This document shows positions 35,580 through 38,131 of a DNA stretch of 64,000 nucleotides, piece after piece (within the stretch, counting starts at the first letter, position 1; the number at the start of each line of letters is the position of its first letter). A program made the position numbers and the translations under genes. The notes beneath the pieces are model-generated. The model was not told where the DNA came from. It saw only the letters and a program-made list of their open reading frames with translations, and made no database searches. This DNA comes from Pectobacterium punjabense (lineage in GTDB: Bacteria > Pseudomonadota > Gammaproteobacteria > Enterobacterales > Enterobacteriaceae): assembly GCF_012427845.1 (NCBI RefSeq), contig NZ_CP038498.1, positions 3,100,001 to 3,164,000 on the forward strand. Direction: 5' to 3'.

Positions 35580-36140
35580 ATGGAAGCACCACTGGTAGAT
35601 ACGTTATTTACAGATAAATTGTATCAATTAAGCCATCAGCCCCACCTACGCTTAACAATACAGGAAGAAAGCGATGCCGATGCGATTTTTACCCTGATCC
35701 AACAGGAAAAATCGCGTCTGCGGCAGACGTTGCCCTGGCCGGATTCTGTCAAGACCGTCGATGACACGCGTGAAACCATTCGCGGCAACAGAAAGGAATT
35801 CTTCGCCAAAACGGCAGCCGTGTATGTCATCCGTTGGGACGACATGCTAGCGGGCATCGTCTCTTTCAATACGATTAAGAACAAAGAAGGCACCATCGGG
35901 TATTGGATCGCAGAAGAATTCGAAGGTAAAGGCATCGTTTCTCAGGCCGTCAGTACACTGATAGCAGCCTATGTCGATGCCAGCCTCATTGAGCGCTGTA
36001 TCATCAAAGCATCAACTGCCAATACACGCAGTAACGCTGTCGCCCAACGACTTGGTTTCCGTTTTCATCACATGGAAAAAAAGGCCGAGAAGATTAGTGA
36101 GCAGTGGTTCGATCACAATATTTATCACTATTCCGCCTGA
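35580..36140 (+). CDS. RimL-like GNAT acetyltransferase
   Basis: A 186-residue GNAT protein of the ribosomal-protein-serine N-acetyltransferase (RimL/RimJ) group. It shows the conserved RLRQTLPWPDSV near residue 48, IGYWIAEEFEGKGIVSQAV (acetyl-CoA-binding Q/RxxGxG-type loop in altered form) and ANTRSNAVAQRLGFRF near the C-terminus. The true substrate may be L7/L12 or another N-terminus. It follows the phzF-like gene and precedes a region carrying the small CRP-linked gene. Confidence 0.85.
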   Translation: MEAPLVDTLFTDKLYQLSHQPHLRLTIQEESDADAIFTLIQQEKSRLRQTLPWPDSVKTVDDTRETIRGNRKEFFAKTAAVYVIRWDDMLAGIVSFNTIKNKEGTIGYWIAEEFEGKGIVSQAVSTLIAAYVDASLIERCIIKASTANTRSNAVAQRLGFRFHHMEKKAEKISEQWFDHNIYHYSA

Positions 36141-36244
36141 CACTGCCTCGTAGTGTATTCCCTCACCTGATTCGCTGCTCTATCGGGCGCGCATCAGGTT
36201 CTTTTCACGCCCGGAACATTCCATTTGCCAAGTCGTTATATTTT

Positions 36245-36260
36245 TGTGACTAACATCACA
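36245..36260. promoter_or_regulatory. CRP-like site 1
   Basis: TGTGACTAACATCACA is a perfect TGTGA-N6-TCACA palindrome with T-rich and A-rich flanks, the CRP-cAMP consensus. Its centre (36252.5) is about 50 bases upstream of the transcription start predicted from the promoter at 36267-36295. Confidence 0.85.
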
Positions 36261-36266
36261 AAAATG

Positions 36267-36295
36267 TTGAAATCCAATTTCATCTCCGCTACCAT
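36267..36295 (+). promoter_or_regulatory. Sigma-70 promoter of the small gene
   Basis: TTGAAA (36267-36272) and TACCAT (36290-36295) are separated by 17 bases. Transcription would start near 36302, directly in or before the second CRP-like site. Confidence 0.65.
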
Positions 36296-36301
36296 TAAAA
36301 A

Positions 36302-36317
36302 CGTGATGAACATCACA
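36302..36317. promoter_or_regulatory. CRP-like site 2
   Basis: CGTGATGAACATCACA matches the CRP pattern except for one base in the first half (CGTGA). It is centred 57 bases from site 1, close to five helical turns, and overlaps the predicted start of transcription, so it could repress or act on another promoter. Confidence 0.7.
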
Positions 36318-36346
36318 CTTAATTAACCCGTTAGAGGAGTCTGAAA

Positions 36347-36445
36347 ATGACTATGTTTCGTAAAATCAGCAAATTCTTCAAAAGAGTGGGAGATGTTTAT
36401 GTCAGCTACTGTGAACGTATTGGGTCAATCATCAGCCCGTTCTGA
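36347..36445 (+). CDS. Small 32-residue amphipathic protein, uncharacterised
   Basis: ATG at 36347 is preceded by AGGAG with 7-base spacing, a near-ideal ribosome site. The 32-codon frame starts MTMFRKISKFFKRVG and ends GSIISPF with a TGA. The N-terminal part is basic (R5, K6, K9, K12, R13) with F4, I7, F10, F11 and V14 on one face, so it could form a membrane-surface helix; the end is hydrophobic. A complete expression unit surrounds it: promoter, two CRP-like sites, and a terminator 20 bases after the stop. It has some feel of the E. coli small protein AzuC, but I cannot claim homology. It might also be a regulatory RNA of about 200 bases with a short coding part. Function is unknown. Confidence 0.75.
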   Translation: MTMFRKISKFFKRVGDVYVSYCERIGSIISPF

Positions 36446-36465
36446 TTGTGATGTAAACAATCTCT

Positions 36466-36498
36466 AAAGCCGCCTCTACCAGGCGGCTTTTGTTTTTC
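36466..36498 (+). terminator. Terminator of the small gene
   Basis: AAAGCCGCCT (36466-36475) and AGGCGGCTTT (36481-36490) form a 10-bp stem with a CTACC loop followed by TTTTGTTTTT. It is an unambiguous intrinsic terminator that isolates the small gene from treB. Confidence 0.93.
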
Positions 36499-36712
36499 TT
36501 GCGCCCCTATTCTTGTTTATCTTCCTTTCTTTTTTGTCTACCCGCACAACACAGATTTGTGCAGCACGCCGCATGCCTGAACATTCTCTTTTAAAAACAG
36601 CCCAATGCATTTCTCTCTCACGGCAAAATCACCATTAACAGACTATGCTTTTCTGTAGCTGTACTTGCTTTGCGTCCCCGACGTCTGCGCTAAAAGATAT
36701 AAGGACATGGCT

Positions 36713-38131
36713 ATGAGTAAAGTGAAACAACAGGATATTGACCGTCTGATCGAGCTAGTCGGCGGGCGTGAGAACATCGCAGCGGTTACACACTGCATCA
36801 CTCGCCTCCGTTTTGTCTTGCACGATGCTTCCAAAGCGCATCCCAAAAACATTGAAGAAATGCGAATGGTGAAAGGCTGCTTCACGAATGCCGGACAATT
36901 TCAGGTCGTGATCGGCACTGATGTAGACGAGTATTATAAGGCGCTGCTCGCCACCACGGGCAAAGGTGAAATCAATAAGGAAGAAGCCAAAGTCGCTGCC
37001 CGCCAGAATATGAGCTGGTTTGAACGCAGTATTTCACATTTTGCCGAGATCTTTTTCCCGCTGCTCCCCGCACTCATCAGCGGAGGTTTGATCCTCGGGG
37101 CGCGTAACGTTATCGGCGATATCCCGATGCGCGACGGGCAAACGCTGGTACAGCTCTACCCAACCTGGCAAACCGTCTATGATTTCCTCTGGTTATTGGG
37201 CGAAGCCATCTTCTTCTATCTTCCTGTCGCCGTCTGCTGGTCAACCGTGCGTAAAATGGGTGGCACGCCCATCCTCGGTATTGTACTGGGTATCACGCTG
37301 GTGTCGCCGCAGTTGATGAATGCCTACCTCATCGGCCAACAAACGCCGGAGGTGTGGAATTTTGGCTGGTTCACGATTGAGAAGATAGGTTATCAGGCAC
37401 AGGTTATCCCTTCCGTATTAGCCGGGATGGCGTTAGCGCTGATCGAAACACGGCTGAAAAAAATCGTACCGGATTACCTCTATCTGGTGGTCGTGCCCGT
37501 AACGTCGCTCATTCTGGCTGTTTTCCTGGCACACACGTTGATTGGTCCGTTTGGTCGCATGATTGGCGATGGCGTCGCCTGGGCCGTTAAAGCAGTCATG
37601 ACAGGCAGCTTTGCCCCCGTTGGTGCTGCGCTATTTGGATTTCTGTATGCACCGCTGGTCATCACAGGCGTGCACCAAACCACGCTGGCGATTGATATGC
37701 AGATGATTCAGAGTATGGGCGGCACACCTGTCTGGCCACTCATTGCGCTGTCTAATATTGCGCAGGCTTCGGCCGTCGTAGGGATAATACTCGTTAGCCG
37801 GAAAGCAAACGAACGTGAGATTTCTGTCCCTGCGGCAATCTCAGCCTTTCTTGGCGTGACCGAACCGGCCATGTACGGGATTAACCTGAAATACCGCTTT
37901 CCAATGCTATGCGCCATGGCAGGCTCCGCTGCCGCCGCACTTATTTGCGGCCTGTACGGCGTAACCGCAAATGGTATCGGCGTGGGAGGACTGCCGGGCA
38001 TTCTCTCCATCAAGCCGCAGTTTTGGGGGATCTTCGCCATCGCCATGCTGGTTGCTGCCGTCATTCCAATTATGCTGACATCGCTGGTCTATAAGCGCAA
38101 AATCCGCAATGGCACGCTAGAACCCGTATAA
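36713..38131 (+). CDS. treB: PTS trehalose-specific enzyme IIBC
   Basis: A 472-residue inner-membrane permease that imports trehalose as trehalose-6-phosphate. The N-terminal EIIB domain has its phosphorylation cysteine at residue 28 (VTHCITRLRF). The EIIC domain has about ten spans (FFPLLPALISGGLILGARN, GIKYRFP-type segment GINLKYRFPMLCAM). No EIIA is attached, as in E. coli, which uses Crr. It is nearly the same length as E. coli TreB (473). The second ATG (36713) is chosen because AAGGA is 7 bases upstream; the ATG at 36707 is too close. treC follows; no treR gene is adjacent. Confidence 0.95.
   Translation: MSKVKQQDIDRLIELVGGRENIAAVTHCITRLRFVLHDASKAHPKNIEEMRMVKGCFTNAGQFQVVIGTDVDEYYKALLATTGKGEINKEEAKVAARQNMSWFERSISHFAEIFFPLLPALISGGLILGARNVIGDIPMRDGQTLVQLYPTWQTVYDFLWLLGEAIFFYLPVAVCWSTVRKMGGTPILGIVLGITLVSPQLMNAYLIGQQTPEVWNFGWFTIEKIGYQAQVIPSVLAGMALALIETRLKKIVPDYLYLVVVPVTSLILAVFLAHTLIGPFGRMIGDGVAWAVKAVMTGSFAPVGAALFGFLYAPLVITGVHQTTLAIDMQMIQSMGGTPVWPLIALSNIAQASAVVGIILVSRKANEREISVPAAISAFLGVTEPAMYGINLKYRFPMLCAMAGSAAAALICGLYGVTANGIGVGGLPGILSIKPQFWGIFAIAMLVAAVIPIMLTSLVYKRKIRNGTLEPV

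Follow-up and report, generated by a model that had tools for sequence, protein, structure and literature searches.

A putative CRP-repressed, AzuC-like microprotein gene located upstream of treB in Pectobacterium punjabense

The window analysed here, a stretch of 64,000 nucleotides from Pectobacterium punjabense, carries on its + strand a self-standing small gene (36245–36498) made up of a palindrome, a promoter, a second palindrome, an AGGAG, a 32-codon ORF and a terminator. It is preceded by a GNAT acetyltransferase gene (35580–36140, + strand), present upstream in 25/25 loci of the genus, and followed by treB (trehalose PTS IIBC; 36713–38131, + strand), found in 20 of the 25 genus loci of ~3 kb with one partial match, and then by treC. 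All the elements of the unit described below are on the + strand. The first CRP-type palindrome, TGTGACTAACATCACA (36245–36260), is a perfect TGTGA-N6-TCACA kept in the 25 Pectobacterium genomes. A promoter scan gives a TTGAAA −35 element at 36267–36272, the TTGA of which is also kept in 25/25 genomes, and, after a 17-bp spacer, a TACCAT −10 element at 36290–36295. Judging from the −10 element, transcription would start near 36302, and the position of the centre of palindrome 1, about −49.5, depends on this putative start. The second CRP-type palindrome, CGTGATGAACATCACA (36302–36317), would thus lie over the start, at about +8, and its CGTGA-N6-TCACA is kept in 25/25 genomes. A Shine-Dalgarno sequence AGGAG (36335–36339) is separated by seven bases from the ATG at 36347, which opens the 32-codon ORF MTMFRKISKFFKRVGDVYVSYCERIGSIISPF (36347–36445, stop codon 36443–36445 included). 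Between the stop codon and the terminator is a hairpin, GATTGT-N7-ACAATC (36444–36462), kept in Pectobacterium and Samsonia and not conserved in more distant genera; the intrinsic terminator detected by a terminator scan (36466–36498) consists of a 10-bp stem (36466–36490) and a T-rich tail. The two sites, the 17-spaced promoter, the AGGAG, the 32-codon frame and the terminator listed in a preliminary description of this DNA were all found where it had placed them.

The unit stands above chance because its elements are combined and conserved, since the promoter and terminator scans are not above chance by themselves: the promoter match is 9/12, with four such sites observed in 2 kb for 2.9 expected, and two terminator-like sites were observed for 2.3 expected. 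CRP-like sites with at most one mismatch number four in the window for 1.8 expected, palindrome 1 being the sole perfect one, and the genome, 4.79 Mb in all, contains the paired-palindrome pattern three times (none for the reversed-pattern control). In 25/25 Pectobacterium genomes the elements follow one another as palindrome, TTGA, palindrome and AGGAG, which agrees with the earlier proposal that the gene has two CRP-type sites and is served by a promoter and a terminator of its own. Mean pairwise identity among the genus loci is 0.92–0.99 across the parts of the unit except codons 1–6 (0.79), and falls to 0.70 and 0.63 in the spacers on either side. Clear homologues (E ≤ 2e-7) are present in five further genera of a 149-genome draw from the family. 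Both the coding sequence and the twin-palindrome promoter are thus conserved.

Variation within the ORF bears the signature of selection on a protein, from which translation is predicted. Across the 25 genomes codons 7–32 carry 11 synonymous and 3 non-synonymous variants, for a chance expectation of 25% synonymous (binomial p 4.7e-5), whereas frame +1 gives 1 synonymous versus 13 non-synonymous variants (p 0.99) and frame +2 gives 2 versus 11 (p 0.92), so that purifying selection is detected in the frame of the ORF only. The count becomes 18 versus 9 (p 7.8e-6) when five ORFs of equal length from two other genera are added (n = 30), and 25 versus 29 (p 7e-4) when the two most divergent members are included too. 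The C-terminal half is nearly fixed, CERIGS[IV]ISPF remaining constant between genera while its codons change; in this region the two divergent members retain only Y18, C22, R24–G26, P31–F32 and a few near-invariant positions. A frame broken in related genomes, combined with the lack of a transcript, was among the observations that the preliminary description had named as refuting the gene; the frame is in fact conserved in 25/25 genomes of the genus. We rejected an overlapping ORF of 22 codons in frame +1 (36399–36467, read by eye), as this frame shows no protein-level selection; it has an internal GGGAG in front of it and, also by eye, is missing from the loci of genera g122 and g73.

The basic, amphipathic character previously attributed to the N-terminus is supported by a hydrophobic moment of 0.71, which a fraction of only 0.005 of composition shuffles equals, and a helix is predicted from residue 3 to residue 29 (mean pLDDT 76, pTM 0.34). 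There is no hydrophobic transmembrane stretch, the best 18-residue segment having a mean hydrophobicity of −0.09. Such a predicted helix fits binding at the inner face of the membrane. The suggestion that the gene belongs to no described family also held: the ORF matches no family in Pfam or in NCBIfam (none up to E 1 in the latter), the unit matches no Rfam family at cut-off, and neither the gene nor a set of small genes with paired CRP sites was found described among the papers listed by searches of the open-licence PMC literature. A structural search with the single-helix model returned no PDB match, an uninformative outcome.

The closest known parallel that we see is AzuC. The gene is not the AzuC orthologue, because that orthologue sits separately in Pectobacterium, at 993.0 kb, where it matches NCBIfam NF033642 with 57 bits for a curated cut-off of 30; the window ORF gives no NF033642 match up to E 1, and its genomic place is not that of azuC. 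The orthologue at ~993000 (L210) has a CRP-type palindrome upstream and no apparent ATG start. Both AzuC and the window ORF are short basic amphipathic peptides encoded by a free-standing small transcript, a predicted one in the case of the window unit. In E. coli the azuC palindromes are at −48.5 and −18.5 from the annotated start; the upstream one thus corresponds to that at −49.5 from the putative start of the window unit, with seven bases to TTGA in both cases, and both promoter regions contain a second CRP-type site, which differs in position (about +8 in the window unit, −18.5 in azuC). At least one CRP-type palindrome is present in the 26 of 26 azuC-orthologue promoters that could be parsed, their placement being read by eye and 4 of 30 loci being unparsed. 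The peptides differ at their ends: K[DNH][VI]PPG.. is the usual ending of AzuC orthologues, a VPPG/IPPG-type motif read from most rows of the alignment, whereas the window ORF has no VPPG and ends in ERIGSIISPF. Profile comparisons gave weak scores and mixed results. The median score of the AzuC profile on the window-ORF family is attained by a fraction of 0.0063 of composition shuffles, and that of a profile of the divergent AzuC subset by 0.0010; reciprocally, the profile of the window-ORF family gives shuffle fractions of 0.054 on AzuC peptides, 0.0004 on the AzuC-like second ORF and 0.0009 on the 23-aa type presented below, and the 23-aa profile gives 0.27 on the window-ORF family. The shuffles control for composition and not for amphipathic periodicity, and part of this similarity signal could come from amphipathic helices that arose independently. 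Given these mixed scores and this possible mimicry, we claim for the window gene an AzuC-like mode of action and not AzuC membership.

We consider it probable, at roughly 60%, that the unit is a CRP-repressed, and hence glucose-on, gene for a membrane-binding, AzuC-like microprotein, possibly carried by a dual-function RNA; transcription, CRP binding, repression, membrane binding, a target and RNA activity are all inferred from the sequence. A free-standing gene would produce a transcript of ~195 nt encoding the 32-residue basic amphipathic helix. cAMP–CRP would bind palindrome 1 just upstream of the −35 element and palindrome 2 over the start of transcription, and would most likely repress; low cAMP, brought about by glucose or another preferred sugar, would switch the gene on. 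Bound to the inner face of the cytoplasmic membrane, the peptide might then modulate an enzyme or transporter of carbon metabolism associated with that membrane, in the way AzuC acts on GlpD, and the transcript may in addition base-pair. AzuC is reported to up-regulate GlpD in E. coli, AzuCR combining CRP repression, GlpD binding and base pairing to cadA and galE (PMC8672173). Repression appears the most likely mode because the first site is placed as in vcdRP and the second covers the putative start. VcdRP of Vibrio cholerae is a small RNA with a terminator and an ORF of about 30 residues, linked to carbon metabolism; CRP exerts repression on it through a site that precedes the −35 box, as evidenced by crp and cyaA mutants, a site-deleted reporter and a gel shift (PMC8672173). 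No matching unit appears in the available part of a P. atrosepticum sRNA study (PMC4710047); starvation was profiled there, and a CRP-repressed gene should be off under such conditions. The unit also resembles Spot 42, a small RNA with an annotated micro-ORF, SpfP, but the peptide of the window unit is not SpfP, no palindrome is detected by our regular expression near the annotated spf start, and Spot 42 gives no Rfam match at gathering score in the window and is not among the five matches found up to E 1 in 36140–36720.

CRP often activates transcription, its usual activating positions being −41.5 and −61.5. The small protein gene might therefore be CRP-activated, and on when glucose is scarce, palindrome 1 recruiting the polymerase and palindrome 2 fine-tuning expression. 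The perfect core of palindrome 1 and the imperfect −35/−10 match (9/12) are in favour of this scheme, which we nevertheless find unlikely: a centre near −49.5 is not a usual activating position, and palindrome 2 would lie under the polymerase. Furthermore repression is what has been reported for AzuCR and VcdRP, both with sites upstream of the −35 element, and azuCR and Spot 42 are cited as CRP-repressed (PMC8672173).

More doubtful is the idea that the unit is first of all a dual-function RNA, base pairing being its main activity and the peptide secondary. AzuCR and VcdRP are precedents (PMC8672173), and in the genus conservation of the synonymous sites and of the 3′ untranslated stretch exceeds that of the neighbouring genes, with identities of 0.982 and 0.986. 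In the 20 of the 25 genus genomes in which both neighbours were found, synonymous diversity is 0.067 in the unit, whereas treB has 0.300 and the GNAT gene 0.259, and a value as low as that of the unit's last nine informative codons is reached in 0 of 279 background windows. This synonymous constraint is compatible with a role of the RNA and no proof of one. Several of the fixed codons are the common ones in enterics, AGA and GGA being exceptions, and part of the constraint could stem from high expression, an abundant product favouring preferred codons. The conserved stretch of the 3′ part is CAGCCCGTT, replaced by CAGCCCATT in three rows of the alignment. The 3′ untranslated stretch is fixed in Pectobacterium and Samsonia but unconserved in other genera, where the C-terminus of the peptide is kept, which speaks against any pairing region beyond the ORF being widely conserved. 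VcdR acts through four cytosines in a row in its 3′ part (PMC8672173), whereas such a run is lacking in the window transcript, the conserved CAGCCCG of which has three. No target was found, treB, the sole candidate examined by name, being rejected as it ranks 35th of the 38 window genes by simple duplex energy, and the consensus RNA fold (33/34 loci) pointed to no target or function. The five Rfam matches in 36140–36720, none of which reaches its cut-off, were judged to be chance; elsewhere in the window the nuoG RNA motif (RF01748; 50733–50776, − strand) is the sole Rfam match at gathering score.

A small membrane toxin or antimicrobial peptide, of the type I toxin or bacteriocin-like kind, would also be short, basic and amphipathic, but it is very improbable here, given that the unit lies beside the same upstream gene in all 25 genomes of the genus, that the peptide lacks the transmembrane stretch mentioned above, that the minus-strand promoter match is weak (9/12) and that the neighbours are the acetyltransferase gene and treB.

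The unit is also independent of treB, which begins 267 bp beyond the ORF. Within ~1.5 kb downstream treB is not found in 5 of the 25 genus loci. In P. brasiliense CFBP8736 neither treB nor treC gives a match in the 8-kb locus, 4 kb on each side, and in Pectobacterium sp. CFBP8739 treB is not found within 4 kb and only a treC fragment lies beside the unit; the unit is kept in both strains. In genera g39 and g122 the unit comes after a phzF-like gene, and treB gives no match in these loci of ~3 kb. Since units persist at loci where treB is not found, the unit is not the leader of the treBC operon. A treBC leader peptide or attenuator, in which translation of the ORF would set terminator read-through into treB, as the short distance to treB, the hairpin in front of the terminator and a sub-threshold Rfam phenylalanine-leader match (28.8 bits for a cut-off of 55) could have suggested, was rejected as highly implausible, the unit not always being directly upstream of the operon and the ORF containing no run of one amino acid.

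The arrangement of the window unit, with palindromes ~57 bp apart and TTGA ~7 bp past the first, recurs in a set of small genes of the GTDB family that we searched for by DNA pattern and not by peptide. The strict pattern was GTGAN6TCAC, 5–8 bp, TTGA, 28–37 bp, GTGAN6TCAC, membership of the set requiring in addition a small ORF after it. The pattern occurs in 73 of 392 family genomes and 32 of 154 genera (reversed control, 0); outside the family, an order-wide search gave matches in 2 of 229 genomes, both unlike the rest by eye. Counted from the list, there are 88 places, 81 with a match of 69–75 bp (67 genomes) and seven with a match of 66 bp, the latter being a different class. Beside a gene we take to be udp a looser pattern gives matches of 66–67 bp and not 69–75 bp, and this arrangement, presumably of the CytR type, was set aside; in several species the inner inverted repeat of the window unit is disrupted. 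Some true relatives escape the strict pattern, for example the g39 unit (L046), which has TTGT.

The window's own unit apart, 67 of the 88 places were read (66 of the 81 long ones and one of the seven short ones), and 66/66 long places precede a small ORF with a ribosome-binding-like site. As this ORF test is lenient by itself, the weight of the set rests on the recurrence of related peptides: 51 of the 66 are a 23-aa MKLxNKII peptide or its shorter relatives, 8 are of the SPF type like the window ORF, and 7 are others. A second, AzuC-like ORF (like MRVVRKINQILKALGKTYRGVNPHAIFR) follows the first in 18 of the 51 MKLxNKII-type loci, short forms included. The 23-aa genes (MKLxNKIIAxF...FGTFN) thus have the twin-palindrome promoter and its spacing in common with the window unit and encode a different peptide; two of these peptides were tested and match no Pfam or NCBIfam family. 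In a peptide-first test, a profile of the 23-aa peptide, used without regard to the promoter, found the gene in 26 of 149 genomes, and a CRP-type palindrome is present within 180 bp upstream in 26/26 (two palindromes in 19), compared with 2 of 359 control windows taken from the same loci. The clean part of this test consists of seven genes, because the other 19 had already been selected by promoter; each of the seven is positive and has a single site.

Pectobacterium carries microproteins associated with CRP sites at three loci: the AzuC orthologue, a two-ORF unit and the window unit. The two-ORF unit, of the 23-aa type, is in the same genome as the window unit, at 831.8 kb (L103, ~831600–831850, − strand); it is a second twin-palindrome unit, its small ORFs are MKLLNKIIAMFENININFGTFNQ and MRVVRKINQILKALGKTYRGVNPHAIFR, and the ORF divergent from it looks like an NCS2-type permease. 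In E. coli, blastn gave a single 28-base match at E 1 for the window unit and nothing for two 23-aa units. At two loci of two other genera (L078, L097) the 23-aa unit is downstream, on the same strand, of an ORF that we take to be atpD-like, with a presumed glmU-like ORF further along in L097; in the atpC–glmU gap of E. coli K-12 no such ORF is present on the one strand read.

What is new is the recurrence of the twin-palindrome promoter, in its 69–75 bp form, in 67 of the 392 family genomes, a small ORF following all 66 of the 81 such places that were read. We propose tentatively that it is quite possible for the Enterobacteriaceae to possess an unrecognised microprotein regulon built on one module, in which two CRP sites ~57 bp apart bracket the promoter and would impose tight, glucose-on expression. 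Its members would include the 32-aa family, the 23-aa MKLxNKII family with its AzuC-like partner ORF, and a 16-aa form; some of them may be dual-function RNAs, and AzuC would be their best-studied relative. CRP-mediated glucose control belongs to the textbook cases of regulation, yet gene finders easily miss its smallest outputs. If it is true that the module marks microproteins, a simple DNA pattern would find them, and AzuC would gain relatives, the features common to which may help to explain the action of these peptides on the membrane and on metabolism.

Several loci display variants of the products. In three genomes of genus g128 (loci L117, L118 and L119) the promoter of the set precedes an ORF of 47–52 aa that is extended at its N-terminus and has LGQxFVGxGKRMY as its C-terminus. 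Shorter forms of the 23-aa peptide, of 16–17 residues and ending in SF, RF or NYSN/NFSN, are encoded at L148, L154, L155, L162, L170 and L244–L248. Finally, at L121 the known sRNA STnc410 (RF02060) lies near the 23-aa unit, at 1816–1973 of that locus on the − strand, which is the strand opposite to the unit.
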